In this document: positions 11,611 through 63,700 of the stretch, one piece after another | Numbering within the stretch: the first letter of the stretch is position 1 | How the letters are laid out: every line of letters begins with the position of its first letter | Assembly: GCA_001875425.1 (NCBI GenBank) | Contig: MIYU01000018.1 | Location: forward strand, 1 to 64,000 | Direction of reading: 5' to 3' | DNA from: Marine Group III euryarchaeote CG-Bathy1 | GTDB taxonomy: Archaea > Thermoplasmatota > Poseidoniia > MGIII > CG-Epi1 | Length of the DNA: 64,000 nucleotides | Program-made: the position numbers and the translations under genes | Notes under the pieces: model-generated | Databases searched by the model: none | Seen by the model: only the letters and a program-made list of their open reading frames with translations | Told to the model about the DNA's origin: nothing

Positions 11611-12099
11611 CTACTGACGGCGTGATAGGCCGATGGCAACTGTAGCTAGAACTACCACAGAGAGCATGCCGAATCCTGGAACCTGTTCACCAGCCCTAAC
11701 GTCGAATAACCCCGCTTCGAATTCAGTACCGTTTAGATAAGCTGTCCAACCTACTGAGTAGGTGCCGTTCTCTAGCTTAACGGTATTCTCACCTTTGAAA
11801 ATAAAGGTTCGACTATCGCCAGCAGTGTTGATTGTTATTGTCTTCTCGGAACCTGGATAATTCTCGTTTGAAATCCACAAAAATTCATCACGAACATCTA
11901 GTTCGATTGTGTAATTGCCCGTTTCATTGGCAACGATAGAGAACTTTACTTCGAATTCACCCCCCTTGTAGAGTGGGGTTTCTACACCGAACCAAGGGGA
12001 GATTACTGCTGCAGTATCGTTCTGAGCTGAAGAGACACCAGCAAACTGTAGTGCAAAGAGAGCTGAAACTAAAAGAACAATCAAAGATTTTGATTTCAT
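11611..12099 (-). CDS. Secreted PGF-CTERM-type protein, predicted archaeosortase substrate
   Basis: Signal peptide MKSKSLIVLLVSALFALQFAGVSSAQ; tripartite C-terminus VPGFGMLSVVVLATVAIGLSRRQ; five N-X-T sequons. Confidence 0.8.
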   Translation of the reverse strand: MKSKSLIVLLVSALFALQFAGVSSAQNDTAAVISPWFGVETPLYKGGEFEVKFSIVANETGNYTIELDVRDEFLWISNENYPGSEKTITINTAGDSRTFIFKGENTVKLENGTYSVGWTAYLNGTEFEAGLFDVRAGEQVPGFGMLSVVVLATVAIGLSRRQ

Positions 12100-12134: not shown

Positions 12135-15100
12135 TTACTTTCTCAATCTGCGAAGAATGAACATAGACATTACTGAAGCAAAGATTGCTGCGACAACCAG
12201 TTGGGACCAGTTTCTACCAGATTCCTCGACTACGGGAGCGGGTGTTGCAGTAATTGAAAATGTATAATTGTTATTACTTTTATCAGATTCTGTAAATGCG
12301 TTTCCTGGATCTATAGACAATCTGATTTCACTAAATTCAGCTGCTATAGCGATTGTAGTGGAAACTGTACTAAAATTGAAATCATCAAAAGTTGCAGTCT
12401 CGAGTGCGATTGCGGCATCGTTTACATAAAATGCAATTGGAACGTCTAATCTGAGAGAAGTAGACGCGTTATTGAATATCGTAGCAGTGAGTGTTACGTT
12501 TACGAACCCTTCCATATCAATATCAGTCATGTTAACCTGTTCAGGCAACCAAGTAACTTCTGTAATAGAGAAATCGGATATTGGAGGCGGGGAGGCAGTT
12601 ACTCTTAATTCATATTCATAAACACCATGTTCTTGATTTTCAGCAGGAATACCATCCCAAACTATCTCTACTTCTGGGAAGATGAAGGAGCCTGGAGCTA
12701 CTGATAAATCTGGAGTTATTAGAATTTCAACGGCTTCAGTTTGATTAGACATGATGTTAACATGGACTGGATTAATAGTAGAAGACCAGCCAGATTGTGC
12801 TTCATTAGAGAAATAAACATAGATATCATACTCCTCTGAGCTTTCTCCTAAATTCTTCAAATAGAATGTGAAAGAAGCCCCTTCACCAATAAGAGCATAT
12901 GCTTCTAATTCTCCATGAGAAATTTCCAACCCTCTCAATAAAATTGGATCTAAAGATATAGTATTCTGAATAGACCCATCTGCAATAGACAAGTTGATTG
13001 TTTCATCAAGAACGAATATTACGCTTGGAACGTAAGAATGATCTTCTAAGTCTGAAGATATAGTATATTCCCCAGCTGGAAGGATAACGTCTAAAATACC
13101 ATCGGGAGCCAATAAATTTAAGGTGAGTTCTGAGCTTGAAAGCACTATTAGAGATTCACTAAAATTCAGAGGAGTGTTTGTATCTGAATTTAGATATGTG
13201 GCCATGTAATGAATTCCTTGAGATAAGGTGATGTCCACATCATGTGATTGATTTGCAACAATGTTTTCAACAAATACAAAACTATTATCGTTATCACTGA
13301 CGTATGCATATAGTTGCACATTTTGTGGCGATAAAAAGAATTCATAATTTCCTGAACTATCTGGATTAATTGATTGTAAAAGTTTCTCACCTACGTCATC
13401 CCATATTTCGATTGTGGCTTCGGGGAATAGTTCATTTGAATCAGGTATAGCATCGAAATCTCTGTCGTAGAAAAGAGCCCCCCCTATTCTAATTTTCCAA
13501 TCAGCCTCTAATGTAAATTGTTGATTGGATACACCTACTTCTATTTTGAAATTATCATTTAGAGTGTATTTTTGTCCTTCTTTGATATAATCGATATCGA
13601 CGTAATATCGGGCAGGAATTATGTCCTCGAAAGTTGGTAAAGAACCGAATGAATCTGTAAATCCTGTGTAAGTGAAATCCATATAACTATTAGACAAAAC
13701 AACTTCGACATCTGATAAAGGATGTGTAACTCCTTCAGAATCTATGTATGTGAAGGAAATGGATGCTGAAACTCTGTCTGGAATTAAGCGTATATCGAAT
13801 TTACAACCACCATCAGAATAACAATTATCTTCTGAAACGACTAATTCGGATTCGTAAAACTCGTAACCATCTACTTCTAGAGAGACTGTGTAAGTGCCTT
13901 TTGGAATTCCGAAATCATTGTAATCACCTCTAGTTGAAAGAACCATAGTTCCATCAACAGAAGATAGGAATACTTCTACGTCATTATCAAAATCTAAAGA
14001 AAGGCCTGTTGGCTTGGAACGAATTCCTCCGTAAAGGAAAAATTCTTCTTCGAGAATTAAATTGTGCTCTTGAGGATTTTCTATATACATTGTATTCAAG
14101 TATGAATGATGACTGTGAGCGGGTGAGAAAGTAACATAATACATACCTGGCGGCACGTATCCTGAATACCCTTGACCTACAGAACCTATATTGTGAAATG
14201 TGAAAACCGTATCTAAAGAGGATTTACTTCTAAATTCTACATCTCCGACAACTGGGTTTCTAAACTCAGAGGTCTTCCATGCATTACCGTAAATTTGAAC
14301 TAATGTTTCTGTAGTTATAGATCCTAAATCAAAAGTGTCTGTATTCAGATCTATTGTTAAATCGCCCTCTGCACTATATCTAACCCCTTCACCTAAATCT
14401 AAAATTGCTTCATAGGTATAACTATCTGGGAGTATTTCTCCCCCTATCCAACCGTTTGAATCTGTGAATAAAGAGATTGTATTTGAAATTGGATCTGTAA
14501 CCGATGAGAATTTGACTTCCATCCCCTCTAATGGTTGATTATCTCCAATAAATTGCCCTGAGATGTAAGTTGGTATACGGCCAATAAAAACTTCTAGATT
14601 ACTGTTTGGAGTTGTGAATGTGACTGGATCTAGAACCTGATATCCATACTTATCCACTCCAACTGAATAAGACCCGTAAGGTAAAACGAAGTTGAAACCT
14701 TCTCCATCTTCCATATCAGACCATACGGAAACTTTACCATTCTCATTTTCGAATGTGAAAAGACCGGAAGATGGTGGATTGAAAGAGGATAGCTTTTCGA
14801 AAGTTAGGAAATTGAATGATGAAGCAGGATAAAATGGTAAATCGAAATGGTTTTCTGAATTGGTTAAATCATCACCATAAGTAACAGTGATTGTATCTAA
14901 AAGAGCGAATATTTCTTGGGTTTCTGAACCACTATAAACTGAATAAACGTAATATGAATCTGGAGGTAAATATAGACTATAGCGGCCATTACCATCAGAG
15001 TACGCTGTAGTAACGGACTTGGTTGATACTGATTCGAAAAGAAGTACATCTATTACAGTATCTTCACTTGTATCTGAAAGAGATTCATCTGTAGATGAAG

Positions 15101-18100
15101 TAGAATCTAACACCCCGTTACCATTAGAATCTAGATATACATAACCTTCGACAAATACAGCTGATTTTAAATTTATAAAGACGGGAGAATCGTATGTATG
15201 CATATCTACCATCTCTAAGTGAGACCAAACTACATCACCTTCAATGGCTGCGTGTCCGTGACCACTATGATCTATAGTAGAACCGTCTAACGTATCAGAA
15301 GATAATGTGGCCTTTAGATAATATTGCTGTGGAATGACTATATCTGTAAAATAACCGTTAACATCAGTCTTTAACTGAATAATAGAACTACCGTCTACGG
15401 CGTGTAATGCCACGGATGCATCACCTTCAGGTACGCCAGCTAGAAGGACAGAGCCTTCTATTCTTTTACCATGAGAAATTGTTATATTTTCGGGTTCGAA
15501 ATTGTTAGTTAATTGAATATCTAAAGTGTTGTTAATCCAATCAGTAGCCATGTCTTCTGAAAGTAAGCGTAAAGTGTAATTGCCAGGCAATAGGTGATCG
15601 AATTGATAAAGAGAATCGAAATCTGAAACTGTGGTTAAATCATTAGTGTGATCGAGTAAGGAGAAGGTGGCTGATTTTTGTTCGGTTTGCGAATCGAAAG
15701 TAATGGCCCCGAAAATATCTAATGGAGCCCAAGCACCGTCAACGGAATCTAAAGATTGGCCTGCTTTTATGGCAGATTGACCTCTATATGATTGAATGAT
15801 CATTTCATGATTTTGATGATATCCTGTTAAGACATATTCACCTGGAGCTATATTAGAAAAAGAATAATTTCCATTCTCATCAGATAAGACAGAACTTGTT
15901 TCTTCAGTGAAAAGATTCTCTAAAACAACTGTAACATTAGATAAAGATTCATCTTGTTCATCATAAGAAAAATCGGAATTTTCATCCCAGTAAATTTTAC
16001 CAGAAATGCTAGAAGAATCTAAAATAATATCTTTTTCTATAGTCCAGTCACCTTGTCTAGTAGCTTCTGCCTCAGTAATAGAAAGAATAACGTCATCTGA
16101 AAGAATAGTGTTAGAAACTTTGAGAGCTTTTTCCTGTTTGGTATTTGGTTCTCCGAGTGAAACAACTAAATTGATTTCGCCTGCAGGTACGAGAATCGAA
16201 TAGTCGCCTTGACTATCGGTTTGAACTGTAGCGTGTGGTATTCTATATTCATCAAATGCAGTAATTCTTGCACCGGCAATAGGTTCACCTGAAGATGTTT
16301 TAATTGAGCCAGTCACATTAGCACCTTCATAATATTTTAAAATACGAAGACCAGAATTAGATTCCACTAGCTTAAAGTGTGTTAGATTCCATCCTGGAGC
16401 TATTCCGCTGTAACCAGAGATGCTAGGGAACCAACTGTAAGCTTCATTTGCTAAATCTCCCATAACTGCAGGTATACCATCGTCTGCTGAACCGCCGACA
16501 TCTAAACCAGACCAACCAATGAAAGCTCTGTAAAACATTGAATTCAAGAATTTATCTTTGTAAACTAGAGATTCGGAATTAGGTGGAATTTGGAATGAAG
16601 GATCTGCCATAATCCTCTCTTCTACTTCTGGAATTGTTAATCTCTCGCCATCTGGCATATCTATAACGACTTCGATATAATCACTAACATTGTAATCTGC
16701 TAAAGTTATTGGAGCATACAGGATACCGGTATTTTGATAGCTGAATGGCATCATACGACGATCGGCTGCAAAATAACGTATAGAATTACCCGTTTCTTCT
16801 TCAACCTTCCAAAGAACTTCATTAATTTTATCGATAGAGAGACTCATTAGTATCGGTGTGGCTGCTCTTATTGCAGCATTTTCTTTATTGATGTCTTCAT
16901 TTTCAGGAATATACTCTTTGGGATTTGAAATAATGTGTTCTAAAGATGAAATATCAGAATCGGAATAATATGATTGTAAAACTTGTTTTGTACCAATAGA
17001 CATAGATTCAGTGCCGTGTCTATCAACTTCTGCTTCAAGTAACCTGTATAACATTAATGATAAGGCTTCTTTTTCAGATTGTGCGGCGAGGAAATTACCG
17101 GCGATTTGATAACCAAACTGGAAATTATCTGCTACTGTAGGATGTTCAGCAATATCTATTGACCAGAAACCGTAATCCCACCATGCAAGAAAAGCCGGCC
17201 TTTCAGTCGGATCAGTATATGCATCTTGTTCGGAAAGCCATTCTAAACCTTCAATCCAATAATCGGATGGGAAAGAGGCCCCTGTAGTTCCTAAATACCA
17301 TAAATCGTTTGTTGTTTTATTATACATACCAGAAACTCCTTCTGGATATTTACTGTAGTTAACACCACCAGATTGGTAATGATCTGAATCATATTCCCAT
17401 TCATCGGGCCTTAGGAAATCTAATGTTAATAAATCATAAACGCCTACGTCGTGTTCTTTTTTAGTTTCATATGGTATTGCAGCATCATAACCATGGAATG
17501 CATTTGGAAGAATTAAAAATGCAGTTATCATGAAAGCCATAAAAGGTTGTTTCAAGTGGAAGGCTTTTCTGAGACCTCCTAAACGATCGCGGAATTTGAG
17601 TTGGGAATTCCAAGATTCTCGGCCCCAATAGATTCGTAAAGTTTTCAGTGTGTGATCGAAATTAGACCAAGTCACAATAGATGCAGTAATCCATCCAGAA
17701 AGAATAACCATTATTGGTGTTGCATTGAATATAAAACGTACAGCTGATTGAGCCATGAAGATTGAAACTGCTGCCCACGTTATTAGGAAAAAGTGATCTT
17801 TCTTCCAGCTTTTATCGTTAAATAATTTCCAAGATAACCAGAAGAGACCGAAAATGGCTAGCCAGGCTGTAACAATACCAAAAGAGAAGATAAAGTTAGA
17901 AAATGAAGGCGGTTGAGCCTCAGCGATTGTATCGGAAAGATTTGTTCTAATGAAATAACCTTGACCACCTAAGAGTAAGAAACCTAATTCAGTAAATACA
18001 TATTGAAGTAATAAGAAACCGACCAAACCTGCAGTTATGGTTGAAGACCAAACCAATAACCAAGGTAAATCTCGTGTCGGAACAAAAATTAAAGAAGCAC

Positions 18101-19097
18101 CTAAAACACCTAGTAAAATATATGCTGGAGCTTCCCACCAAGTGCTAAGAGAACCCATAGTGTAATAATAGGGAAATGAAAGGATAATTGGTACAGAAAG
18201 TGCAATAATACCGACCATAGCAACCGAGAAACTATCTACCTTTTTTACCGAATTAATTAACATTTGAAGAACTAGATAGATAGCTACGATCGCCATAAGA
18301 TATGGGAACCCCTTCCAAGATAATGCAACAATCAAAAGAGATGTCCCGGCCAACCCTGCATAACCTATCGATAATAGTTCATTTGAAAAGAAAGATGAAA
18401 ATCCTTCTTTAATAGAATCGATATCTTTCCAATTAGAAACCCAACGTTTATCTTCAGAAGAAGATAGTGACTTCATAAAGAAATAGAAACAAATCGTAGT
18501 AAGTAAGATAATGAACGAATCGTGATCAGCTAGAGCTAACGTTGAATGCCCTATATGGCTCGCACTAACTGAGATGAAAAAGGCTGAGAAAAGAGCAGCT
18601 TTGGAGCCGAAATAAGTCCTGCCCATTGCATAGATGGGGAAAACCAATAGAGCACCATATACTGCAGGCATAATCTCAGTAGCCCACCAAATAGCATCAG
18701 CCTGATTACCGACAATTGGGGAAATTAATAATCCTGCGATTACGATTGACCAGTCGAATAAAGGAGGTCTAACATTGTTCGCCCCTAGAGGGTAATTTAA
18801 CATCGGATCGCTGATAAGATGTTTACCTGTTTCGTGAACATAATCTATAACGTGTTTATGATAATACGGATCACTACCTCCAGTAAGTTGAAAGCCATCC
18901 TCGGTTGCTGGTTCTAAATTCCAAGCAGTTCTAAGATACAGCGCGAAAAGAAAAATAGCAATTACAATAGCGACCTTAGACCAATTTATTTGACTGAAAG
19001 ATTGTGTTTGTTTTACAGAAGTGGAGACTGGAGTCTGCTGTGAAGCAAACGGAGTGCTAATACGCTTCTGTTTTTGTCTCCTTCTAGATCTAGCCAT
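12135..19097 (-). CDS. aglB: AglB/STT3 oligosaccharyltransferase with very long C-terminal multi-domain extension
   Basis: N-terminal polytopic region with GGSDPYYH, ADHDSF and WWDYG (FLAWWDYGFWSIDIAEHPT); from ~aa 924 (nt ~16326 downward) repeated carboxypeptidase-regulatory/CnaB-like units, CARDB-like segment, C-terminal TM plus RRLRK. Confidence 0.92.
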   Translation of the reverse strand: MARSRRRQKQKRISTPFASQQTPVSTSVKQTQSFSQINWSKVAIVIAIFLFALYLRTAWNLEPATEDGFQLTGGSDPYYHKHVIDYVHETGKHLISDPMLNYPLGANNVRPPLFDWSIVIAGLLISPIVGNQADAIWWATEIMPAVYGALLVFPIYAMGRTYFGSKAALFSAFFISVSASHIGHSTLALADHDSFIILLTTICFYFFMKSLSSSEDKRWVSNWKDIDSIKEGFSSFFSNELLSIGYAGLAGTSLLIVALSWKGFPYLMAIVAIYLVLQMLINSVKKVDSFSVAMVGIIALSVPIILSFPYYYTMGSLSTWWEAPAYILLGVLGASLIFVPTRDLPWLLVWSSTITAGLVGFLLLQYVFTELGFLLLGGQGYFIRTNLSDTIAEAQPPSFSNFIFSFGIVTAWLAIFGLFWLSWKLFNDKSWKKDHFFLITWAAVSIFMAQSAVRFIFNATPIMVILSGWITASIVTWSNFDHTLKTLRIYWGRESWNSQLKFRDRLGGLRKAFHLKQPFMAFMITAFLILPNAFHGYDAAIPYETKKEHDVGVYDLLTLDFLRPDEWEYDSDHYQSGGVNYSKYPEGVSGMYNKTTNDLWYLGTTGASFPSDYWIEGLEWLSEQDAYTDPTERPAFLAWWDYGFWSIDIAEHPTVADNFQFGYQIAGNFLAAQSEKEALSLMLYRLLEAEVDRHGTESMSIGTKQVLQSYYSDSDISSLEHIISNPKEYIPENEDINKENAAIRAATPILMSLSIDKINEVLWKVEEETGNSIRYFAADRRMMPFSYQNTGILYAPITLADYNVSDYIEVVIDMPDGERLTIPEVEERIMADPSFQIPPNSESLVYKDKFLNSMFYRAFIGWSGLDVGGSADDGIPAVMGDLANEAYSWFPSISGYSGIAPGWNLTHFKLVESNSGLRILKYYEGANVTGSIKTSSGEPIAGARITAFDEYRIPHATVQTDSQGDYSILVPAGEINLVVSLGEPNTKQEKALKVSNTILSDDVILSITEAEATRQGDWTIEKDIILDSSSISGKIYWDENSDFSYDEQDESLSNVTVVLENLFTEETSSVLSDENGNYSFSNIAPGEYVLTGYHQNHEMIIQSYRGQSAIKAGQSLDSVDGAWAPLDIFGAITFDSQTEQKSATFSLLDHTNDLTTVSDFDSLYQFDHLLPGNYTLRLLSEDMATDWINNTLDIQLTNNFEPENITISHGKRIEGSVLLAGVPEGDASVALHAVDGSSIIQLKTDVNGYFTDIVIPQQYYLKATLSSDTLDGSTIDHSGHGHAAIEGDVVWSHLEMVDMHTYDSPVFINLKSAVFVEGYVYLDSNGNGVLDSTSSTDESLSDTSEDTVIDVLLFESVSTKSVTTAYSDGNGRYSLYLPPDSYYVYSVYSGSETQEIFALLDTITVTYGDDLTNSENHFDLPFYPASSFNFLTFEKLSSFNPPSSGLFTFENENGKVSVWSDMEDGEGFNFVLPYGSYSVGVDKYGYQVLDPVTFTTPNSNLEVFIGRIPTYISGQFIGDNQPLEGMEVKFSSVTDPISNTISLFTDSNGWIGGEILPDSYTYEAILDLGEGVRYSAEGDLTIDLNTDTFDLGSITTETLVQIYGNAWKTSEFRNPVVGDVEFRSKSSLDTVFTFHNIGSVGQGYSGYVPPGMYYVTFSPAHSHHSYLNTMYIENPQEHNLILEEEFFLYGGIRSKPTGLSLDFDNDVEVFLSSVDGTMVLSTRGDYNDFGIPKGTYTVSLEVDGYEFYESELVVSEDNCYSDGGCKFDIRLIPDRVSASISFTYIDSEGVTHPLSDVEVVLSNSYMDFTYTGFTDSFGSLPTFEDIIPARYYVDIDYIKEGQKYTLNDNFKIEVGVSNQQFTLEADWKIRIGGALFYDRDFDAIPDSNELFPEATIEIWDDVGEKLLQSINPDSSGNYEFFLSPQNVQLYAYVSDNDNSFVFVENIVANQSHDVDITLSQGIHYMATYLNSDTNTPLNFSESLIVLSSSELTLNLLAPDGILDVILPAGEYTISSDLEDHSYVPSVIFVLDETINLSIADGSIQNTISLDPILLRGLEISHGELEAYALIGEGASFTFYLKNLGESSEEYDIYVYFSNEAQSGWSSTINPVHVNIMSNQTEAVEILITPDLSVAPGSFIFPEVEIVWDGIPAENQEHGVYEYELRVTASPPPISDFSITEVTWLPEQVNMTDIDMEGFVNVTLTATIFNNASTSLRLDVPIAFYVNDAAIALETATFDDFNFSTVSTTIAIAAEFSEIRLSIDPGNAFTESDKSNNNYTFSITATPAPVVEESGRNWSQLVVAAIFASVMSMFILRRLRK

Positions 19098-19165: not shown

Positions 19166-20443
19166 TCACTCGTCAGATGGCGTAATTTGACCGGAAACTG
19201 CACCGAATCCTACACGATAACTATCGTTCTGACACCACCCAGTTATAGAAATAGAATCGTAATCATCTAAGAACGTTCTTTTTTCATTGTTTGATAAATT
19301 GATTGGTTTAGTGCCGTTCCAAGAAAGTTCAAGAAGACTGCCATAACTATCAGAAGAGGGACCACTGATAGTTCCTGACGCTAGTAAATCTCCTGTTCTA
19401 AGATTACAACCATTAACAGTATGATGAGCTAATTGTTGTGTCATACTCCAATAAAGATGTTTAAAGTTGGTATTACAGATAACATCCGTATTATCTGAAT
19501 TGGCTGTTTGTAATGATACTTCTAGATTTATGTCGTAGCTGTTTTTACCAGATGTATTAAGATAGGGTAATGGTTTGGGATCTTGTTTTGGCCCTGAACA
19601 GCGAAATGGTTCTAGTGCTTCGAGAGTGATGACCCAAGGGGAGATAGATGTAGCAAAACTCTTTCCAAGGAAGGGGCCTAATGGTTGATACTCCCATTTC
19701 TGAATATCGCGTGCACTCCAATCATTTACCAAAACTAGGCCGAAAATATGATTTTCTGCTTCTTGAGTTGAAATTGTGTTACCGAGAGTATTGCCTGGGC
19801 CGACTAAAGCACCCATTTCGAGTTCAAAATCAAGTCTGTTTGAGGAACCAAAAGATGGAGTGGAATCTTTAGTCAGCATTTGCCCACTGGGTCTTTTGAT
19901 ATCTGTTCCTGAAACAACTATAGAAGAAGAGCGACCGTGATATGCTACTGGTAAATGAAGCCAATTTGGCATTAGTGCATTTTCTTCACCTCTAAACATC
20001 TTACCTACATTAGTTGCGTGCTCTTTTGATGAATAAAAATCAGTATAATCTCCAACATCGACGGGTAAAACCATTTCGACATCTGAAATATGAAATAAGA
20101 CGTCTCCTCTAATTTTAGAATCTCTAAGCTCTGAATTATCCTCTGAAAAAAGATTACTTAATATTAATCTGGTTTCTTTCCAAGATGCCCTTCCAAGGCT
20201 CATAAAAGCATTTAATGTTGGTTCATCGAAAACGAGTGTATCTTGTAAATTTGAATTTGAGAAAAATCCATTGGAATCTAAAATGGATAAATCAATTACA
20301 AAGTCTCCAATTATGGTACAAACGTGTAAATCGCCACCACTTATTGGACGAAAAACACCGAAAGGTAGATTTTGAATTGGAAAATGAGAATCTGAATTAA
20401 CTTCGATCCAAGATTTCAAATCGGGGTTGTGAGTTTCATCCAT
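19166..20443 (-). CDS. fahA: Fumarylacetoacetase
   Basis: LPVAYHGRSSSIVVSGTDIKRPSGQ, DFELEMGALVGPGN, VLVNDWSARDIQKWEYQPLGPFLGKSFATSISPWV, NLRTGDLLASGTISGP. Confidence 0.97.
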   Translation of the reverse strand: MDETHNPDLKSWIEVNSDSHFPIQNLPFGVFRPISGGDLHVCTIIGDFVIDLSILDSNGFFSNSNLQDTLVFDEPTLNAFMSLGRASWKETRLILSNLFSEDNSELRDSKIRGDVLFHISDVEMVLPVDVGDYTDFYSSKEHATNVGKMFRGEENALMPNWLHLPVAYHGRSSSIVVSGTDIKRPSGQMLTKDSTPSFGSSNRLDFELEMGALVGPGNTLGNTISTQEAENHIFGLVLVNDWSARDIQKWEYQPLGPFLGKSFATSISPWVITLEALEPFRCSGPKQDPKPLPYLNTSGKNSYDINLEVSLQTANSDNTDVICNTNFKHLYWSMTQQLAHHTVNGCNLRTGDLLASGTISGPSSDSYGSLLELSWNGTKPINLSNNEKRTFLDDYDSISITGWCQNDSYRVGFGAVSGQITPSDE

Positions 20444-20444
20444 A

Positions 20445-21365
20445 TTACATCCATCCTAAGTCTTTGAGGTCGTCCCTTGGTTCATTGAATGAACAACTAC
20501 CATAAGAGAGCAACGCCTCCTCTCTTAAATCAACTATCGCATTTACTGGTAAACTATTGTTTTTCCAAGAAAAAGAGGTGTTTTTGAATGCGAAATTATG
20601 AGGATTTTCATCTTCCAATGCTTCGATTAAATTAGTTTCATCTATTATGCCTGTATAAAATAAAAGAGCTGAGCCGAAAACGTTGACAAACCCATGCATT
20701 TTAGTGCCGATTTCTTCATCAAAATGACGGATTGGGTGGTGGAGCCCTGCAGTAAATTTTAGTTTTACATTATTTTTTTTACAGAATGATAACGCTGAAG
20801 CTATTGTTTTAGAAGAGGGGAAAGCCTCTGGAACAATGCCCCCACATCTTAATTTAAGTTGTATATTTTTAATATTTGATGTGGAAATTTGATTAGAGAT
20901 AGTTGAAAAATCTGTAATTATAGGCTCTAAGAAAATTTCGACAGAGTTATCAAGAGATTTGATTGAAGTACTCAAAATGTTTAAAATGTCGTTTAAATTG
21001 TTATTTTGAGTATCTATTTTAGCTTCTAAAGACTTGATTTTACAAACATCACCATATTGATCTTCAAAGGTTTTAATGGTACTTAATTCCTCGTGAAATT
21101 TATTTATATATGTATCGTCTTGAAAATTGCCAGTAAGTAAGACTGAAAGATGGAGAGGCTTTTCAGCTGTAAAATCGGATAAATGAGGTAATAAATTATT
21201 CAATTTTGAGATTGGGCAAATAAAACGATTTAATATCCATGAATCGGAAGAAGAAAAATATAATTTATAATTAGAAATTGCATCGTCAAAGGGCAGTTCA
21301 GAGGGAGGGAACAGACCTGCATAGTCAATTAGAGATTCCATGAAGGAATGAAGGCTATTATTCAT
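20445..21365 (-). CDS. Uncharacterised conserved protein encoded between fahA and hgd
   Basis: SLIDYAGLFPPSELPFDDAISNYKLY...VKLKFTAGLHHPIRHF...MHGFVNVFGSALL; no family name assigned; 1-bp gap to fahA and 9-bp gap to hgd. Confidence 0.8.
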   Translation of the reverse strand: MNNSLHSFMESLIDYAGLFPPSELPFDDAISNYKLYFSSSDSWILNRFICPISKLNNLLPHLSDFTAEKPLHLSVLLTGNFQDDTYINKFHEELSTIKTFEDQYGDVCKIKSLEAKIDTQNNNLNDILNILSTSIKSLDNSVEIFLEPIITDFSTISNQISTSNIKNIQLKLRCGGIVPEAFPSSKTIASALSFCKKNNVKLKFTAGLHHPIRHFDEEIGTKMHGFVNVFGSALLFYTGIIDETNLIEALEDENPHNFAFKNTSFSWKNNSLPVNAIVDLREEALLSYGSCSFNEPRDDLKDLGWM

Positions 21366-21374
21366 TCTATTCAG

Positions 21375-22559
21375 CTACTCACCCAGTGAATCGCTATATT
21401 CATCTCCGGCCAACCACGAAGAACCGTAATTTTCATCCTCTATGACTAAAGAATTCTTAGCGACTAATAATGGATAATAGGTATCCACCATAACTGCCAA
21501 TTCATCTGTCCATTTCTGACCAATAGATGCTTCATATTTACCAGGATGAGGGCCATGTGTTAAACCGTCAGGATGTAAAGTTAGGGATCCGAATTCTACG
21601 CCCTTTCGGGACATAAATTCATCCTTAGCATAATAAATTACCTCATCAGACATGACGTTTGAATGATTATAGGGGGCTGGTATCGAATTTTCATCGAAAT
21701 CGAATGGACGAGGGCAGAACGAACAAACAACAAAATTCAGTCCTTGAAAAGTTTGGTGAACAGGAGGTGGTTCGTGTATACGGCCAACTATTGGTTCGAA
21801 ATCATTTATATTGAAAGCATATGGATAGTAATATCCATCCCAACCAACTACGTCACAAGGATGGTGTCCTAAGGTTACTTCAGTAAGGAGGTCTCTTTGT
21901 TTGACTAATACTTTGTATTCTCCTTTTTCATCATATGTTTTTAATTCCTCAGGAGCTCTGAAATCACGCTCTGAATATGGACTTCGTTCGATTAATTGAC
22001 CATATTCATTTCGATATCTTTTCGGAGTATTAATCTCTCCCGACCCCTCTATAATCAACAGTGAATGTAATTCTGATTTCATATTATATTTGTGTAGAAT
22101 TCCTCTAGGTATGATCAAGTAGTCTCCTTGACCGTAATTTATATCGCCGTATGCCGTTTCCAAAACGCCATTTCCTTTACCAACATAAACAACTTCATCT
22201 GCTTGTGCATTTCTATAATAAAAATCATCATTTTTGTCTGGATGAGATGTGGAAATAATAACATCTTTGTTGAATAAGAGTGGCGTACGGTCGGTTACTG
22301 GACTTCCACCTTTTGGTAATCTTTCAGTGTAGAAATGGCGCATTCTCAGCGCTGCATCTGGATCTTCTTCTAAAGTAAAAGTATCGATTACTTTAGTAGA
22401 TACTACTTCTGTTGGAGGGTGTACATGATATAGGAGAGCTGAAGGGCCGTCGAAACCTTTGTTTCCCTTTAATTCTTCATGATATATGTTTCCTTCTTTA
22501 CTTCTAAAAACGGTATGCCGTTTTCGTGGTATTTTACCTAGTTTGTGATATCTGTGCAT
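21375..22559 (-). CDS. hgd: Homogentisate 1,2-dioxygenase
   Basis: Cupin-type sequence: GDYLIIPRGILHKYN, EPPPVHQTFQGLNFVVCSFCPRPFD, PYNHSNVMSDEVIYYAKDEF, GSLTLHPDGLTHGPHPGKYEAS; next to hpd and fahA. Confidence 0.94.
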   Translation of the reverse strand: MHRYHKLGKIPRKRHTVFRSKEGNIYHEELKGNKGFDGPSALLYHVHPPTEVVSTKVIDTFTLEEDPDAALRMRHFYTERLPKGGSPVTDRTPLLFNKDVIISTSHPDKNDDFYYRNAQADEVVYVGKGNGVLETAYGDINYGQGDYLIIPRGILHKYNMKSELHSLLIIEGSGEINTPKRYRNEYGQLIERSPYSERDFRAPEELKTYDEKGEYKVLVKQRDLLTEVTLGHHPCDVVGWDGYYYPYAFNINDFEPIVGRIHEPPPVHQTFQGLNFVVCSFCPRPFDFDENSIPAPYNHSNVMSDEVIYYAKDEFMSRKGVEFGSLTLHPDGLTHGPHPGKYEASIGQKWTDELAVMVDTYYPLLVAKNSLVIEDENYGSSWLAGDEYSDSLGE

Positions 22560-23647
22560 TATAGATTTCCTCTCTCTGATTGGTGCCTTTCTATAGCTTC
22601 GAAAAGTGCTTTGAAATTTCCGAAACCGAACCCCCTACTTCCTTTTCTTTGAATTATTTCGTAAAAAAGAGTTGGTCTGTCTTGAACCGGTTTTGTAAAT
22701 AGTTGAAGAAGATACCCTTCATCATCTCTATCTACTAAAATTCTTAATTTTTTTAATGTATCAAAATCTTCATCTATTTCACCAACTCTATTTAGGAGAT
22801 TGTCATAATACGTGTCGGGAACTTCTAAAAATTCAACCCCGTTCGCCCTTAATTTAGTGATAGCTCCAATAATATTATCAGTCAAAAGAGCCATGTGTTG
22901 AACTCCGGGGCCGTTATAGAAATCTAAATATTCTTCGATTTGTGATTTTTTCTTCCCTTCTGCTGGTTCATTTAATGGAAATTTAATTCTACCCCTACCA
23001 CCTTCCATTACTTTAGACATAAGAGCTGAATATTCTGTAGAGATGTCATCATCGGTAAAGTGCTGCATCTGTGTAAAACCTAAAACATTGGCATAATAAT
23101 CTGCCCAAACATTCATTTTGCCTAGTTCGACATTGCCGACAATGTGATCTACAAATCTCAAACCGACTGGTTCTTCTTCGATAATATCAGCTCTGTATCC
23201 TGGAAGAAAGGGGCCTGAATAATTAGAAGTAGAAATGAAAGAATGGATAGTATCGCCATATGTACGAATTGAAGCATACCTTATTGTTCCGTGTTCATCA
23301 GAAATATCTTTTGGCTCAGTGACGGATTGAGCACCTCGTGCAACCGTATCGTTGAAGCAAGAATCTACATCATCGACGTGAAAGGAGATATCTTTTGCTC
23401 CATCACCATGATTCTTAAGATGATTATTCATTTCATCATTACCATTAAGAGGTGATGAAAGAACCAACCTTATCTGTCCTTGTTGTAAAACGTATGAGGC
23501 TTTTTCTCTAGTACCTGTTTCTAATCCAGAATAAGCAATTTGTGAATAGCCGTATGCTTTACGGTAATAGTAAGCTGCCTGTTTAGCATTACCTACCCAC
23601 AGCTCAACGTGGTGTATATTCTTCAAAGGAAGGGGGTCATCACTCAT
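22559..23647 (-). CDS. hpd: 4-hydroxyphenylpyruvate dioxygenase
   Basis: HHVELWVGNAKQAAYYYRKAYGY, VDHIVGNVELGKMNVWADYYANVLGF, GPGVQHMALLTDNI, FYEIIQRKGSRGFGFGNFKALFEAIE. Confidence 0.97.
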   Translation of the reverse strand: MSDDPLPLKNIHHVELWVGNAKQAAYYYRKAYGYSQIAYSGLETGTREKASYVLQQGQIRLVLSSPLNGNDEMNNHLKNHGDGAKDISFHVDDVDSCFNDTVARGAQSVTEPKDISDEHGTIRYASIRTYGDTIHSFISTSNYSGPFLPGYRADIIEEEPVGLRFVDHIVGNVELGKMNVWADYYANVLGFTQMQHFTDDDISTEYSALMSKVMEGGRGRIKFPLNEPAEGKKKSQIEEYLDFYNGPGVQHMALLTDNIIGAITKLRANGVEFLEVPDTYYDNLLNRVGEIDEDFDTLKKLRILVDRDDEGYLLQLFTKPVQDRPTLFYEIIQRKGSRGFGFGNFKALFEAIERHQSERGNL

Positions 23648-43539: not shown

Positions 43540-44009
43540 TGAAGGGAATAATTGTAGCAGTTAATCCAAATAGAGTAATAGGATGTAAAGGAGACATTCC
43601 TTGGCATTATTCAGAGGATTTGAAAAGATTTAAAAAATTAACAATAGGCAACACTGTGATAATGGGAAGAAAAACTTGGGAATCTTTACCAATAAAACCA
43701 CTCCCTGAAAGACGAAACATTGTGATTACAAGTCGAAAGATAGAAGGGGTTGAATGTTTTAAACAGATAAAGAAAGCATTAGCAGGAACGGTGGGCGATG
43801 TGTGGTTCATAGGTGGTGCAGGGATATACGAAGAAGCGTTGAAATATGCAGATAGAATAGATATGACTTTAGTTCCCGACATAGTTAATGAAGATGATGA
43901 ATGTGTATATTTTCCCGAGATACAGAAAGATGAATGGAGAGAGAGTTCGTCGAATAAAAATGAAGAGAATCCTGAATTAATGCAAAAAATATTTATTAGA
44001 ATTACTTAA
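43539..44009 (+). CDS. folA: Dihydrofolate reductase
   Basis: IVAVNPNRVIGCKGDIPWHYSEDLKRFKKLTIGNTVIMGRKTWESLP; TAATG coupling with thyA. Confidence 0.96.
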   Translation: MKGIIVAVNPNRVIGCKGDIPWHYSEDLKRFKKLTIGNTVIMGRKTWESLPIKPLPERRNIVITSRKIEGVECFKQIKKALAGTVGDVWFIGGAGIYEEALKYADRIDMTLVPDIVNEDDECVYFPEIQKDEWRESSSNKNEENPELMQKIFIRIT

Positions 44010-44910
44010 TGTTATCTGGTTTTTTTCTCTTTGTTAAATCAATCAAATCTAAAATATTATTTTGCATTTCAGGCATATAATGAAATAGTGCGACCGCTAA
44101 GAAAATTAAAGCGAAAAGGCTGCCTCCTTTTCCTATCAAAGAATGAGCGTAATAGAAAGTTTCATCCCCCCAAACATGTGAATATGTTAAATAAATTATA
44201 GAAACGTTTCGAACGAGATTTAGAAAATATATTACAGGTACTGTAGCAAGGAATGCGTAGATACGTCGTTTAAAATCAGCTTTTGTACAAAGAACGCCAC
44301 CTACAAAAATAATCATTGATTGTAAAGCTGTACAAGCTAAAATTATATTGACGCTAGGGGCCATTGGATCTTTCCAATCTGCAGAGACGCCGACTGTAAC
44401 TTCTTGATAAGAAGAACCTGGACGATACCACGTAGAACCGGTGCCATAATCAATTGGTTGTAAAGTTACACCGTGATTAAAAACTTCTAAAAGAAATGCT
44501 GAATGATGTGCAACAATATTGATAAACCATCCTGCTAAAAGAGGAACTCTTTCCACGAAAAAATATATTCCACCTGCGACGACAGTCATCGCCCCAAGCC
44601 ATGCTAAGGCAGGGTATGGAGTTTTCCAAGCAATATTGAGATATTCGTGGTAAGCAAGATAACTGAAAAAAGGAAGGCCTAGTAAACAAAGGAATGCATT
44701 TACTGGATCACGTATCATCATATAGTGTTCTATCTGTAAAAACCAAAAGCCGCCCATGAAAAGCCAGCCCACTATATTCAATTCGAAACCTGCTTTTTGT
44801 GGTATAGAAAAATTAGAAAATGTAAATTTATTTGAAGATATTAAATTTCCTAATGCTAATAAAATCAAAGAACCTATGGCAAAAGCTTCTGCGATGATTT
44901 CTAATTTCAT
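44002..44910 (-). CDS. artA: Archaeosortase A-like transpeptidase
   Basis: Polytopic; ILACTALQSMIIFVGGVL (Cys), FLNLVRNVSIIYLTY (Arg), FYYAHSLIGKGGSLFALI (His) exosortase/archaeosortase catalytic triad. Confidence 0.9.
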   Translation of the reverse strand: MKLEIIAEAFAIGSLILLALGNLISSNKFTFSNFSIPQKAGFELNIVGWLFMGGFWFLQIEHYMMIRDPVNAFLCLLGLPFFSYLAYHEYLNIAWKTPYPALAWLGAMTVVAGGIYFFVERVPLLAGWFINIVAHHSAFLLEVFNHGVTLQPIDYGTGSTWYRPGSSYQEVTVGVSADWKDPMAPSVNIILACTALQSMIIFVGGVLCTKADFKRRIYAFLATVPVIYFLNLVRNVSIIYLTYSHVWGDETFYYAHSLIGKGGSLFALIFLAVALFHYMPEMQNNILDLIDLTKRKKPDNIK

Positions 44911-54743: not shown

Positions 54744-57700
54744 TTACTCTTCGTCTCGAGTGTTGATTCTAGCAACACCGAAAGCACTGACAAATCCTGA
54801 GATAATCAGACCTAGCATTCCGATAGCGAACGATGGTGTTGCCATCTTGGCTGCTAGAACAGTTACCTGTCCTGAACCGGAATTGTCACCCCTCTCATCG
54901 AAGAACTCATCATTCATTACATGACCTGCAGCAATGTCCTGAGATTCAAGTACAGGATTGATTACAGCGTACATAGTGATGTCCGCATAATCTCTGGTTG
55001 AACCTGCTGGCATTGTTACTTCGAGCCAGTTGAAGCTAGCCTGATAAGTCATTCCTGAAACTGAGTAAGGTTCCATTCTGTCGATACTTGTTTCGCCTAC
55101 TCTGGTAGTTCTGACCACACCAACACCTGGAATATCACGAGCATCTCCGTCTGGATCAGCTACATAGAAAGTAACCAATACATCGGAAGCGTAGTTTCCG
55201 TGATTAACTGCGTTAGCTGTTATCATTAGAGAGTGTGGTTCGTGACCGAAGGAATCTTCGGAGTGTTTGTGACCGACACCTGCATCGATTACCTGCCATC
55301 TGTTGAATTCTAGGTCTCCCACGATTTCAAACTGTGATGGTGGTATGTAGAACGAAGCTATGTCCGGTTCCGGTAGATCCTGTCCTAGAGCGACTTGGAA
55401 TGCATTAGCATGCAGAGATACTTCGCGACCACCGGCTGGTTCGCCAGTGTCCCAGTCGTATGCTGGAGCCGTTATTTCGAAGTTAGCTGTAGCCATGAAG
55501 ATACCTGACTGATCGCCAATTGGTTGCAAGTTGTATGGCAACCAAGGAGCAGTACAGCCCAAATATGGTGGTGAAACACAGTTGTAGTATTCTGCTGCGT
55601 AACTACCATCCCAAATTCCGTCGTCAGTTCCATCAAAGTCACGTGGCCATAGACATGCTTCCCATGGGAATCCGAAAATCATAGCGAAAGTACCACAATC
55701 GACACCGTTCACCATGTTTGCCCATGCAGAGATACCCCATCCAGAAGTATCGTAGTCAGGGTCACCTGAAACCAATTCTGGGTTGATGAATACTTGATCT
55801 GGATATACACCAGTGTTAGCACTGAAGTACTCTACACTCTGTGTTTCGCCAGGCAAGATTTCATACCTTCTCTGGTCGAAGTCTACCTTCTCGATAAAGA
55901 TACCATATTCTCTGACATTGACTATTTCAATACCACCGATACCAACAGTACCTGAACTACCTTCTACTCTAATTCCAAAGGAGTAGAAATTCTGATACTT
56001 CATACCGCCGAACTCTAAGTTGACCTCGTTTTCATTGTATACTGGATCACTATCCAAGTGTACGTAGACCGGAGTCCAACCACACTTTCCTGCTCCTGCA
56101 GTATAGAATGCATCCATACCAGTCCAATCGTTCTCAACTGTACAGACATCGCCGTATGAAGAGCCTGTCAATGCATCACCTAGTTGACCGTGGTCATCAC
56201 CAGCGCGCATATCGAAACCGTTCATTTCAGTTAGACCGATAGAAGTTGTACCACCAAATAATGTGTTTATGTGGTGAGCCCAGACAGATATTTCTGTATC
56301 CACTGAAACATCAGTATGTAGCCAGAATACAAGATATGAGTCTTCACTCCATAGTGGAACGAATGGTGTTCTCAATTCCTCAGCTTCACCGTTTAGATCC
56401 AAGTAGTTGTACGATTGACCGAATTGGTTCATACAACCAGAATATGTGAAGTCATTCATTGGTCCACAGCCTGTTTCCCAAGCGGAGCTCATAGACATTT
56501 CTGTGTTACAAGTCTGGTCGAAGTTTGGATCTAGTGGTGATAGACAGCCTCCTTGACCGTAATCATACCAGACACCGAAACCTGCATTCATACCTACTAG
56601 AAGCATGTGACTCCATGATTTCTTACCGAATGCATCAGCGAATTGTTCGCCGTTACTATCGAGTAATCTTACACCTATTGTGTACATACCTGGAGTATTC
56701 AATGCATCTGTTTGGAATTGCATTAGACCTGTGTTAAGACCGAAGGCCAAATCAGAAATTGTTTGTGTACTAGACCAAACTGCTTCGCCTCTATCTGTAT
56801 CAATATATGCTTCGACAGTTAGTGCTTCAATTTCGTCACCTATGTCTCCCTCACCAACGTTAGCGAAGGCCGCTGAGATGGTTGCGGATGAACCGACACC
56901 TGCTCTGTATGACATATAGCTATCGACCATTTCTACTGCAGCTCCTCTAGTCAACATCTTAATGTTGTCTATGAACCACCAGTTGTAGTAGTAGAGTCCA
57001 TAGTTCATGTATCTCTCGTATCCTGGGTCGTCGGCATTGTCTCCACCGAACATAAAGGATATGAGTACTTCCTGACCAACATAGTTATTGATTGTAGATT
57101 CTGAGTAATACCAATCATCATTGTCGTAATAACCAGTACCTAGACCTGCGAATGCGTTGGTACCATATGGTAATGGATTGTCGCCACTACCGTCAACAGT
57201 TCCACTGTATCCGTGACCAGCTGTTATAGATAATCTCTCCCATGTATCTCCACCATCGGTACTTATCTCAATAACTCCACCACCGTCACCGGCTGCGAAA
57301 TTGTATTGATGTTCGAAAGTTAAGATAGCGTGGGTCGCACCGGTTAAGTCCATTGGTGCTGAAACTAATCTTACATTATCTGCGCCTGCTCCGTCATCAG
57401 TTAAGAACCAAGACATATCTCCATCACTGGATCTGTATGAGCTAGGTTCGAAAGCTGCTTCTCCTGAAACAGTCTCTGAAGTCCAACCTGTGTTGTAAGT
57501 CATTACTGTTGTTGAAGCTTCAACTACATCTGTAAGGTCGTAAGTGCCTTCCCAGTAACCCCAATAATCGGAACAGAAGGTAACATCATAGGTGCCTCCA
57601 ACGACGTTGAAGTAAACCTCTTGAAGTGTACCAGATGGGAAAGTGCCTGAAGCGACTACGTTACCGGACGAGTCAACAACTTCGACTCCACCAACGAAAC

Positions 57701-60700
57701 CGTAGTAGTTCCAACCATCACCATAACTGTCCATCAATTTAGCTACATATTGGCCTGCGTCCAGTTGAACGTCCTCGAAGGTTCGGCCCCAGTAGTAGTA
57801 GCCCGCCGAAGGTGGACCCCAGCTACAAGATATAGCGTTTCCAAAGTTACTATCTGTTGGATAAGTGAATCCGTGTGGACCACCAATCTGAGAGACGGCG
57901 TTAGCGCCCTGAGAGAATGTCGATTCGCTCTCTTCTTCAGCACCATTCATGGTGTGTACGAAGTAAGAATCGAAAGTCGTATCTGCTCTACTATCGGAAA
58001 GATAGTCATCACAGTCAGCAGCGTCTACTAGACAAGCTTCTGTTCTAGCTATCCAATCACCTGGCATTACAGTCCATGCGTTACTGAATGTTGCTTCTTC
58101 TGCTCTTGCCAAGTCAGGAACGTCCAAACTTATTGGATAACCTGGACTTGCTACAAGTGATGTTGCTACGACTGCGAAGTCGTCAATCATCCACTGAACA
58201 TTGTCACTAACCCAAACGTATTGATCGATACCAGCATAGAATCTGATATGAACAGTCTGACCGAGATAATCACTTAGATCGAAGGTATCTTCAATCCAGA
58301 GACCACCACAGCTGTCGCCACAGTCACCGCTCTGGTGAATGAAAGCATCCGTATCACAAACATTTGGATCTGAACTACCTTGGTAAGCGCCGTTACATTG
58401 ACCGTCGTAGCCACGAACTGGTTCTAATGGAACCCAGTTTGGTGCCTGTGCTACAGTCACTATATCGTAGGAAGCCTCGTAAGGTGCATAATTGTCACCG
58501 CAGAGTCTGAGATCTATTTCTCCACTACCTGAGTAACTGAATGCAGTTTCCATGTAACCGCCGTTGGCACTTGGGAATGATGCTGAAACGATTTCTGCTC
58601 CAGTAGCACTGTCGTAAACAGTTACACTACCTACAGTTGAACCGCCCCACATTGTGTCATCCCAACCATCGCCGTAACTATCCCACATCTTTAGGAGATA
58701 ATCACTTTCGGCTGCAGGTATACCATAATCCATTGAACAGCCAGCGGCTGCACTTGGAACTCCGCGCTGTACACCACCAAATAAGGACACAGGTCCTGCA
58801 CTTGGATCGTCAGTGGTCACTTGTACTTGACCGCCTGCGTATGCGTAAGCGTTGTTGTATGCTCCATTGTACCATGAGAACTGATACTTGTGGTGTATGT
58901 TCATCTTAGGTGATGACATATCAGTCAGTTCGAATGTTCCTGCATTTAGAATATGAGTGCCTGGACCGAATCCGCTACTGCCACCAGCAGATGGACCCCA
59001 TCCAGAAAGAACACTGCCATCATCATCTCTACCTGGATAAGTCCAGCCGTTACCTGCGTTATTAACGTCCCAGCCTTCCCATCCTGTGGTATCGTATTTG
59101 ACGTTCTCATCTACTGTACCTAATGTAAGAGATGCATCAATGTTTGAACCTGATTGATCCATTAAACCGTGGTTTCTTACTGTAGATACGAAGTTCGAAG
59201 TTTCACCAACTAGATATCTTTCAGTATCTGCGTCAATACCTGCCCTCATGTTATTATCATGAGCAGAGTAATCGATAGATATATCATCGAGTAGATAGTA
59301 CTCAGCAAGACGTGGACCTGGACCCCATTGGTTAGTGAATCTCAATTGAGATTCTTCGCCACCAACGAAATCTGAAAGATCCATTGAGACCTGTACATAA
59401 CCATCAGAGCCACACCAACCTATTCCACATGAACCTGATTCACCGACTAGATCCCAAGTTAGACCTCCATCGGTTGTTATCTCAACAAGTGTTGGATTCA
59501 TCTGATTTAGATAAGTTGTGCCGTATGCGTAGTAGCTCTCCCTGTAGGTCAAGGTTGCTTCATAAGCTACATCCAGATTGAAAACTGGAGAAATAACCCA
59601 TGGGAAACCGTGTCCCTGGAATGGTGTATCTTGGCCTTCACCGTGAGCGTTTGCGTGAGTTCCGAAATTGATACAATCCGTACCACTGTATGCGAAACCA
59701 GCACAGCTGAAATCGTTCTGAAGATCTGGATTAGATCTGTATTCCTGAGATCCTAAATCCCAGTCATCTTTACCAGAGTAATCAAAGTTGTAGAACGTAT
59801 CATGTGAAGGTCCTACTGTGTGATAAGAGACTGCGAAGTTGTTGCTTGGATCTTCATCATCAGCTGAATTGCCGTAAATTGCGGTTGCCTTGAAGTAGAA
59901 ATCATCTCCTTCTGCAAGACCGTGGTCTGTTGGCAAGAATGCCGGTAGAGTAAATCCACCCATTCCTCCTTGACCAGATATAGTTCCTGCATTGGAGCTC
60001 AACGTAACAAATGGATCGTCCAATACTTCCTGAGAAATAATTACGTTGTCTAATCTGTACCAACCATTGAAGTCAGCGTCCTGTAAAGCACTCCAACCGA
60101 GTGTCCATTTCATTTGTACTGTAGTACCCGCGTAGGATGTTAAGTCAATTGAAACTGATTCGTATTCGCCTTCAGAAGCGCCTGCATCATTTGGTCCTGG
60201 GCCTGTCCAACCAGCTGCACCAGCGATTGGGCTGTCTGAAATAACTCCAGGATAGCCTCCATCTGGGGCAATTGATGACCAAGTCTCTCCACCATCGTTT
60301 GTTATTTCTAAGTATGCACCATCGTATGTCTCATAGAATTGATATGAGTGATCGAAGGTCATAATTACTTCACCTACTGCATCAGATAAATCTGCTGCTG
60401 GTGACATCAAATAACTTTGTGAAGGTGGTGCTAGACCATATTCTGCTGTGAATGCTCCACCATAGGAACATCCGTCACATTCTATTGAACCTCTCTGTCC
60501 ACCGTCTCCATAGCTGTCACGAATGACCATGCCGTGAGAACCGGCTGGAAGGTCACTTATGTCGTGTGTATTGATATCATAACCACTCTGGAAAGTCTGG
60601 AAACCTGAGAAGTAATAACTACCATCTTCTAAGAGAATATTGTAGCTACCTTCACCATACCAGTAATCCACTTCAGCAGTCAATGTTAGACCTGGAGCAG

Positions 60701-63700
60701 TTCCTGCATAGGTGAATTCGAATGTTCTTTCGTTTGCACCCATTGCATTACATGATGGAATTCCATAGTTGTAATTCGACCAGCAATAATCTAGAACCTC
60801 TCCATCAGATACTGCATATGCACCGATTTCATATTCTACGACTTTGAGTTCCTCGTTTGAGTAATCGCTGTCGCTGAAGTAACCTGTAGATACGAGTACA
60901 CGACTGTCGCTAACTGAAATTGCTCCAGTTACTGAGTGAGCTGCGTCTCCGCCGCTACCACCCCATTCGTGCATTAGACTCCAATCTTCACCGGAATCTG
61001 ATCCTATAGCCATTCTGAATAAGTCACAACTGCCACTGACTCCGTTGTCATCACAAGCGTCATCACCGTATGAAACAGATGAAGTGTATGCTTCTGCTGA
61101 GTAGAGGTAACCATTGTGCGCATCTATAGCTGTAGCACCCCATGTATCACAAGTACCGCACGCGTACGAGTACTCGTGGTAATCTGAATCGATTTCATCA
61201 GTGTAATAGTATCCACTTGCATCTCTGTTGTATGATCGTACTACTACGTAGTCATCATCAGCCATTGAAGCGTGTACATTACCAGCGTCATCCACGACTA
61301 AGTCGCCGAAGGATGTCATAGTAGTTCCAGTAGTATCTGCATTTACGCCGAGTCCTGCAATGTCATCGATAACAGATGTGCCATCGTGTTGTAGGATTTG
61401 GTGTATTGCATTATTACCGCTGTCACCGACGAAAGCTTCTGTGTGGCCTTCATCATATGCATAGTTGATTACGAAGTGTGTTCCGTCATCTACTGAAGTT
61501 CTTGGCATGGTAATATCACACCAAAGCATGTAGAAACCTTCTGAAGCGTTAGATATTCTGAACCAGACCGCACTGTCGTAGTAGTCGATAGTTCCATCGC
61601 CATCTGCGTCAGTTGGGACAGGGTCTCCTAATTCTAAGTATCCCCAGTCGCCGTGATCTTCAATCTTGAACATCCAATCATATCCGTAACTACCCTGGGC
61701 TGAGGTGTAAGCAGATGCCCAAGTTCCACCGTCGCCGCTGTCATCTCTAAAGTGCATGACATAGTCGCCCTGTTGTAGAACTGTGTAGTAGTAATACGAG
61801 TAGAAATCTGCAGAACCATCACCGTTACAATCGAAGTTTCCGTATGGATTGTGTGTGAACCCGTATCTGTATTGTGAGTCGTCCATTGCTGAGATTCCAT
61901 AAGAATCTAATGAACTACCTAGCCAATCATAATTTCCTTGATCTGTAGAACCAGTCAAGTCTGCATTGTAGTAATGCGTAACTTCACTGTAAGTACTGCC
62001 ATCAGAAGTTAGAGTTGTGACGTGGCACATCTCATCTGCATCGTGTTGATAGTGTGAACCTTCTGCTTCATCACCAGTACCACCGTATGTGGTTGTGGTA
62101 GCAGATACGTCCATTAATCCACCAATCGCGAAACTGGTTGGTTGACTCATTTCACTTCCGGAAGTCCATCTGTATAATGTTTCACCAACATAGTCGACTG
62201 CCCAGGTGTAACCGCAGCCTTCAGCTATTCTGGTGTTACCATCGAATAGATTTCCTGAAACATATGTGTCTTTCAAACCTGAATCCATTATAGTTCCACC
62301 CCATCCTGGACCAGCTGCCCAGTGATCGAATTCACCTACGACTGTATCGTGTGACCAGTCATCTGTGCTTGAAACTAATTCAAAGGCTGAGAAAGTACCT
62401 TCATTACCATACCAATCGCTGTCGAATCTCATTGTAACAGGCGGCAAGGTGTCAGCCGCAACTGAGAAATCAACATAACATTCTGAAGACCAACCGGAGT
62501 TCCATGGTGTATCACCACAGCCGGATGCCATTTCATTTCCAGCGCCATCTAGAACGGTTATGGTGTGTCCACCGTCACCGTATGCATCTTCTGCAAGAGC
62601 TCTGAAATCGCCTGGTATTGCTGTTGCTACTGTATGATCAATGGTCAAACATACTTCGTACCACCAGCTATCTCCTGAAGCGGTAACCTCAACAGGTGTT
62701 GCTGTGCTACCGTCAATAGTGAAAGTAAATGATGCTTCTGAACTATAGTCGTAAGGACCGATGTGACCCAATGAATTGCCGTTTGCGTCTGTTGCATCGA
62801 CAGTTCCACCGCCGTCACCGTATGCATCAGTAACAGTTACGAGATACATACCCATTTCAGTATAAGATTCTGAAACGCCGTAGTATATGTCATAATTGTA
62901 TGAACACTGACTGTATCCTGGACCATAATAACCGCCCTTGTAAACCTGAGTTGTTACAGAGTCTGAAGGTAATTCTAGAGTTACTGAGCTGCAAGAAGCC
63001 ATATCCCAATAACAGTCGAATGTTCCATCAGAAGATCCGTATGAACCAGATTCTGGACCAGCAATTAAAGAAGTGTCTGCGTCCATAGGCTCATTCAAAG
63101 CATCTTCGAAAACAGTGTTGTGGAATGTCCCTTCGAGAACTACATTCTCCTCATCGTTCAATCCCATGTTCTTTATTACTCCACCAAATTGAGAATCGAA
63201 ATTTTCTGGAATTTCTGCGCCGCCTATTAGAGTCTGGTCCATGACCAAGTCATGTAGAGCCCATGAAGGTGGTGCGAACATAACAGCGAAATCGCCTCCA
63301 GCTAAGTCGCCGTTACAAGAAGAGCCACAGTTGACTGTTCTGTAATCTAGACCGTTTGAACCGTCACCTTGTGAAAGGCCGATTACTGGGTCATCTTGAC
63401 GAATTGTGCTGCTAGAAGTAGCACCAGCACCCCAGTCAGAATACATGGCAACTATAGTTCCATCTGCAAATAATGCAGCTGAGAATGTAAAGTCCCCATA
63501 CATTTGGCAAGCCGAATATCCGTACATACATTTATCAGTCCACTGTACGAAATATCCATCACCGTGATCTGGGTGAGATGTTTCTGTGTGGTCAATGTAC
63601 GTACCATACGACAAACTACCATCATTATTCGAGTAATAATACCAATCATCGTGCGCTACATCCATCTTCGGAGTTCCTGAATTGGAAGTCGAAGGAGATG

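Follow-up and report, generated by a model that had tools for sequence, protein, structure and literature searches.

The catalytic subunit of protein N-glycosylation, the oligosaccharyltransferase (OST), is usually seen as an enzyme whose peripheral domains are small. AglB-L of Archaeoglobus fulgidus (868 amino acids [aa]; PDB 3WAJ) terminates after units CC, IS, and P1 (PMC3703281, PMC8342417). Tandem prealbumin-like beta-sandwich modules are found in Gram-positive SpaA/CnaB-type pilins and in the B repeats of SdrD, which are sortase-anchored wall proteins with no enzyme and no return to the membrane. Eukaryotic NOMO carries a transmembrane (TM) anchor. Its prealbumin-like domains are numbered to 12 and are non-cytosolic within the BOS/multipass translocon complex (PMC11186639). 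Here, we analyzed 64,000 nucleotides from the Marine Group III euryarchaeote CG-Bathy1 (contig MIYU01000018.1, positions 1 to 64,000; hereafter, the window), in which aglB encodes a 2320-aa protein that joins an AglB enzyme to a tail of such modules. We favor, with a probability of roughly 0.6, a reading in which this long AglB is a vertically inherited form typical of Thermoplasmatota that combines an OST core with a doubly anchored extracellular scaffold, the role of the latter being independent of transferase activity. No description of a long-tailed AglB was found in the open-licence papers searched. The features of the gene are as follows.

12135..19097, minus strand: aglB, long-tailed OST of 2320 aa, an uninterrupted single open reading frame (ORF); complete Marine Group III orthologues have 2282–2363 aa
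17283..19097, minus strand: STT3 membrane domain, aa 1–605 (PF02516, E 4.7e-11; PDB match AglB 3waj, E 1.3e-9, phmmer)
18870..18872, minus strand: EL1 catalytic Asp, D76 (GGSDPYYH), invariant in alignment A1
18519..18530, minus strand: EL2 DXD motif ADHD, aa 190–193; D191 and D193 invariant in A1
17919..17930, minus strand: EL5 TIXE motif TIAE, aa 390–393 (within TIAEAQ); E393 invariant in A1
16338..17282, minus strand: AglB core, aa 606–920 (PF22627; PDB 3vgp, E 1.3e-10)
17169-17183, minus strand: WWDYG, aa 639–643, inside the AglB core, invariant in A1
12939..16337, minus strand: tail of 12 prealbumin/transthyretin-like modules, aa 921–2053 (module hidden Markov model [HMM]; CarboxypepD_reg, E 1.6e-34; AlphaFold beta-sandwich strings)
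12213..12938, minus strand: two Ig-like and CARDB modules, aa 2054–2295 (weak CARDB match, aa 2200–2279; PDB 2l0d, E 8.5e-6; beta strands)
12153..12209, minus strand: C-terminal TM helix, aa 2297–2315, then basic RRLRK (hydropathy 1.96; AlphaFold helix, aa 2298–2319)

The reading frame opens with ATG and runs without interruption. Its first part shares with AglB-L, to which it is matched by phmmer, the STT3 membrane domain, the DXD, TIXE, and WWDYG motifs, and the core, whereas AglB-L has neither the prealbumin array nor the terminal TM helix. PF02516 matches aa 66–468 at 43.3 bits (cut-off 24.5), and the core profile PF22627, placed at aa 630–682, falls under its cut-off in one Pfam search and over it in another. 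All four sequence hallmarks of an OST (the EL1 Asp, EL2 DXD, EL5 TIXE, and WWDYG in the core) are present, and their key residues do not vary in A1, an alignment of 11 diverse relatives, one row of which lacks the core end. As judged from sequence, aa 1–920 are a complete AglB with intact catalytic motifs, and no other STT3 homologue was found in the genome, which is 79% complete. The OST model TIGR04154, associated with the archaeosortase A system, aligns with aa 43–710 (E 8.4e-64) but scores 216.3 bits where the cut-off is 450, which leaves the window protein outside the family by this model; none of 17 Thermoplasmatota genomes tested passed that cut-off. Archaeosortase A itself is encoded in the same window.

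From aa 928 onward, Pfam returns repeated CarboxypepD_reg, SdrD_B, and SpaA matches, all prealbumin-like. A parse by eye divides this region into 12 modules of 85–111 aa, and a repeat HMM likewise counts 12 (aa 925–2049), a number that is not wholly independent because the HMM was seeded from the by-eye parse and iterated on relatives. AlphaFold, run on two overlapping halves of the tail, predicts strings of beta sandwiches at aa 905–1605 (mean pLDDT 74.9) and aa 1505–2320 (mean pLDDT 84.6), and the helix that it places at the terminus coincides with the hydropathy peak. Because of this terminal TM helix, the chain outside the cell is a loop anchored in the membrane at both ends, by the multi-TM core and by the final helix with its basic tip. 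The tail has a net charge of about −157. A sequence-only reading of the window, which preceded this analysis, had proposed an AglB with a giant tail of about 12 repeats followed by CARDB-like domains and a C-terminal TM segment; this architecture is borne out, as is its tail length of ∼1400 aa, whereas the enzyme portion, put at about 924 aa, ends near aa 920. Two further proteins encoded in the same genome (contigs C10 and C16) match CarboxypepD_reg; both were rejected as arrays of the same kind, since they read as transglutaminase-like/Ig surface proteins.

The array of about 12 prealbumin-like domains (12 counted) with a single C-terminal TM helix resembles NOMO, which differs in not being fused to STT3. 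The best PDB match of a tail profile is NOMO2 (9c7v_B, E 2.4e-16), followed by SdrD, but the NOMO2 score adds up from individually weak module matches, each of 12–20 bits. The Pfam family NOMO_5th has five matches in 116 genomes of the phylum, all in ORFs assigned to aglB by contig, strand, and frame length, and none over the cut-off; in the window protein it also stays under the cut-off. NOMO was not found in single-sequence searches and is absent from the Foldseek top 50 lists for the tail models, which favor pilins, the TIE protein, and macroglobulin-type proteins. Owing to the weak summed matches and the Foldseek result, we call the tail NOMO-like in layout, not NOMO. Orthology was not accepted, as its support comes from profiles alone and from generic module similarity, and Foldseek does not single NOMO out. 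NOMO is thus the nearest named analogue, matching in layout and profile but not demonstrably by descent, and the tail offers, by layout alone, an archaeal case for how NOMO-like arrays could come to adjoin glycosylation machinery.

Comparison of AglB lengths across the clade supports the architecture. The number and order of modules are fixed in complete Marine Group III orthologues, and from module 7 on the module lengths hardly differ, with modules 2–6 varying by 10–30 aa. Identity to the window protein is ∼56% in STT3 and core and 24–43% in the modules, of which module 1 is the best conserved (43%) and module 2 onward range from 24% to 36%. The sequence-only reading had implied that such a protein is rare; instead, the long form is the rule across Thermoplasmatota. 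Complete long AglBs of about 2060–2740 aa, mostly with 11–12 modules, occur across most of the phylum, and nearly all of them end in the TM helix, followed by a basic tip. Tail length is 1324 ± 120 aa (complete long forms outside Poseidoniales), and 65 of the 78 long forms counted, a sample that includes near-duplicate loci, have 11–12 modules. In this phylum of marine plankton and methanogens, over half of the OST protein is a surface module array.

In Poseidoniales, AglB open frames mostly reach ∼3120–3320 aa where the contig permits. These proteins (L073:294-10043; L083, N-terminal ∼400 aa) begin with an additional region of ∼350 aa that contains membrane segments, and they have a ∼350-aa stretch without recognized modules between module 1 and the remainder. 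A WWD-like pattern (WYEAG/WYDAG) in the N-terminal extension of some of them is probably due to chance. Short forms of 1122–1430 aa, with 2–6 modules and no terminal TM helix, are confined to two branches and make up families f5, f16, f29, f34, and f40 and a second set, f4, f10, f23, f31, and f39; no separate tail gene was found beside the short-tailed AglBs at the loci examined. On a tree of STT3 and core, the long forms require three label changes against a mean of 15.1 for shuffled labels. Gain or lengthening of the tail was probably a single, early event in the phylum; this tree, having no known root, does not separate one gain from a gain followed by losses. In families f27, f6, and f43 (L257, L258, L259), the EL2 DXD appears degenerate, with WWDYG and TIXE (or TVAE) kept, the register being that of the sequence alignment alone.

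An observation that bears on function comes from family f17, which forms a single clade (support 100) on the same tree. The f17 genomes are methanogens, because they carry methyl-coenzyme M reductase (seven of seven tested), and most likely represent Methanomethylophilaceae. Profile searches of 11 genomes recovered one AglB homologue each, with open frames of 1831–2002 aa, and no second STT3-like ORF of AglB size. The EL2 DXD, TIXE, conserved Arg, and WWDYG are lost in all 11, and the EL1 Asp in 10 (replaced by Glu in two); the AglB core profile matches none of them, as opposed to six of six comparison genomes. The tail and terminal TM helix were read directly in four of these proteins and judged from open-frame length in the other seven. 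Across genera, pairwise identities among four sequences compared are 37–50% for STT3 and core and 30–42% for the tail, and on account of this persisting identity the proteins appear to be maintained. Retention of an 1830–2000-aa protein after loss of the catalytic motifs implies a non-catalytic role; long AglB thus probably has a second, non-catalytic job. More tentatively, and at somewhat under even odds, this scaffold role would be old and glycosylation-independent, and the f17 protein a pseudo-oligosaccharyltransferase retained solely as a membrane-anchored surface or translocon scaffold. The lineage makes tail function testable by comparison of active enzyme and pseudoenzyme.

The tails are also rich in glycosylation sequons. 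With GN[YF][TS] masked, 36 representatives contain 1062 forward N-X-S/T motifs versus 488 reversed ones, and the forward count is higher in 34; persistence after masking led us to reject the GNYT module motif as the source of the excess. Given this approximately twofold excess, the tails of long AglBs are probably glycosylated. The ratio is 1.3–1.4 in Marine Group III, Methanomassiliicoccales-like, and some sediment groups, and 2.2–2.75 in Poseidoniales, DHVE2, and others. In f17 the count is 59 sequons versus 40 reversed; sequon loss was rejected as a test of lost glycosylation in that family, the count not being diagnostic because Marine Group III is equally low.

Together, these results point to an OST core that continues outside the cell as 12 prealbumin-like and two Ig/CARDB modules, the two ends of the chain being held in the membrane. 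In the model that we favor, the core would glycosylate emerging surface proteins, probably including its own tail, and the tail may cover the outer face of the membrane around the OST as a scaffold or spacer that is glycosylated in part, a structural or organizing role that would need no transferase activity. That the protein is a structural scaffold we infer from its retention without catalytic motifs; a translocon or chaperone-like role would be compatible too. Several points weigh against this model. The loss of OST activity in f17 is read from motifs alone, and the existence of short-tailed AglBs means that an OST does not in general require the long tail. The Wilcoxon p of 6e-7 for the tail sequon excess overstates independence, as the 36 representatives share ancestry; STT3 and core also have a smaller excess (193 versus 119 reversed); and sequons in the window tail are barely enriched (16 versus 12 reversed), so that the glycosylation claim is not extended to it. 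The interpretation in the sequence-only reading is partly supported: among the roles it had offered, the best fit to the f17 proteins and the enriched tail sequons is a protein that serves as both a glycosyltransferase and a structural surface protein.

That reading had also suggested that the tail recruits acceptors. As an acceptor-handling arm, analogous to the luminal accessory subunits of eukaryotic OST, the array would bind or guide polypeptides during translocation and so bring their sequons to the active site of AglB. Its fusion directly behind the catalytic core, its location outside the membrane, and the conservation of module 1 would suit this role, but the arm would be useless in f17, whose retention of the protein it cannot account for, and the tail evolves fast from module 2 on, with no obvious conserved binding site. 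We consider such an arm possible but unlikely.

Alternatively, the tail could be part of a processed polyprotein that is cleaved, or whose C-terminal TM helix is exchanged for lipid by archaeosortase, to give a separate surface protein. This possibility draws in part on other genes of the window, of which the following were noted.

11611-12099, minus strand: secreted protein of 162 aa encoded immediately downstream of aglB; its end is PGF-CTERM-like (VPGFGMLSVVVLATVAIGLSRRQ)
19166-23647, minus strand: fumarylacetoacetase, homogentisate dioxygenase-like, and HPD-like genes upstream of aglB
44002-44910, minus strand: archaeosortase A (TIGR04125, 150 bits against a cut-off of 75)
54744-63896, minus strand: 3050-aa protein, sole match InhA-like MAM

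Each of the 40 close relatives searched has a match to archaeosortase A, above the cut-off in 38; the secreted protein adjoining aglB ends in a PGF-CTERM-like sequence, and the TM helix with basic tip of AglB looks like a sorting signal. In one Methanomassiliicoccales AglB the terminus reads PIPGFEAF...MKRRK, a weak Loki-CTERM match. That match is under its cut-off, however, no PGF motif precedes the TM helix of the window AglB, and no separate tail gene adjoins the short-tailed AglBs examined, which makes processing rather improbable. The 162-aa protein was matched at none of the other Marine Group III loci examined, and the fumarylacetoacetase gene adjoins aglB in 11 Marine Group III loci.

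The proposal that the protein spans the cell wall or S-layer has been weakened. As an envelope spacer, the tail would extend into an S-layer or another outer layer, or pass through it, and set the distance of that layer from the membrane; the small variation in tail length and module count within the phylum is in keeping with this. The terminal TM helix, however, should make the chain loop back, and an arch of ∼14 modules of 3–4 nm, a size taken from known modules, would stand at most ∼25 nm high. The same phylum includes Thermoplasmatales, most of which are described as having a single membrane and no S-layer (PMC3750248, PMC5155288). Given the return of the tail to the membrane, and since many Thermoplasmatales reportedly have no S-layer to span, we regard this as quite improbable, and favor a scaffold held at the membrane surface.

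An assembly or frameshift artefact joining two genes, which the sequence-only reading had named, as a frameshift-fused gene pair, among its possible refutations, can be set aside: relative G002 has a frame break and the halves of the gene in G003 lie on different contigs, but in G003 both sides of the break are contig ends, many independent Marine Group III genomes contain full-length ORFs of equal length with the same modules, and long ORFs also occur in single-contig genomes elsewhere in the phylum. The split-gene reading, with separate core and tail genes, was rejected for the same breaks and for the lack of a tail gene beside the short-tailed AglBs examined. Among the Marine Group III loci, one aglB contig (L140) lies inside a metagenome-assembled genome titled Flavobacteriaceae bacterium TMED121, probably a binning error, and two near-identical aglB copies in one genome (G004:C9 and G004:C30; L017, L022) are perhaps an assembly duplicate.

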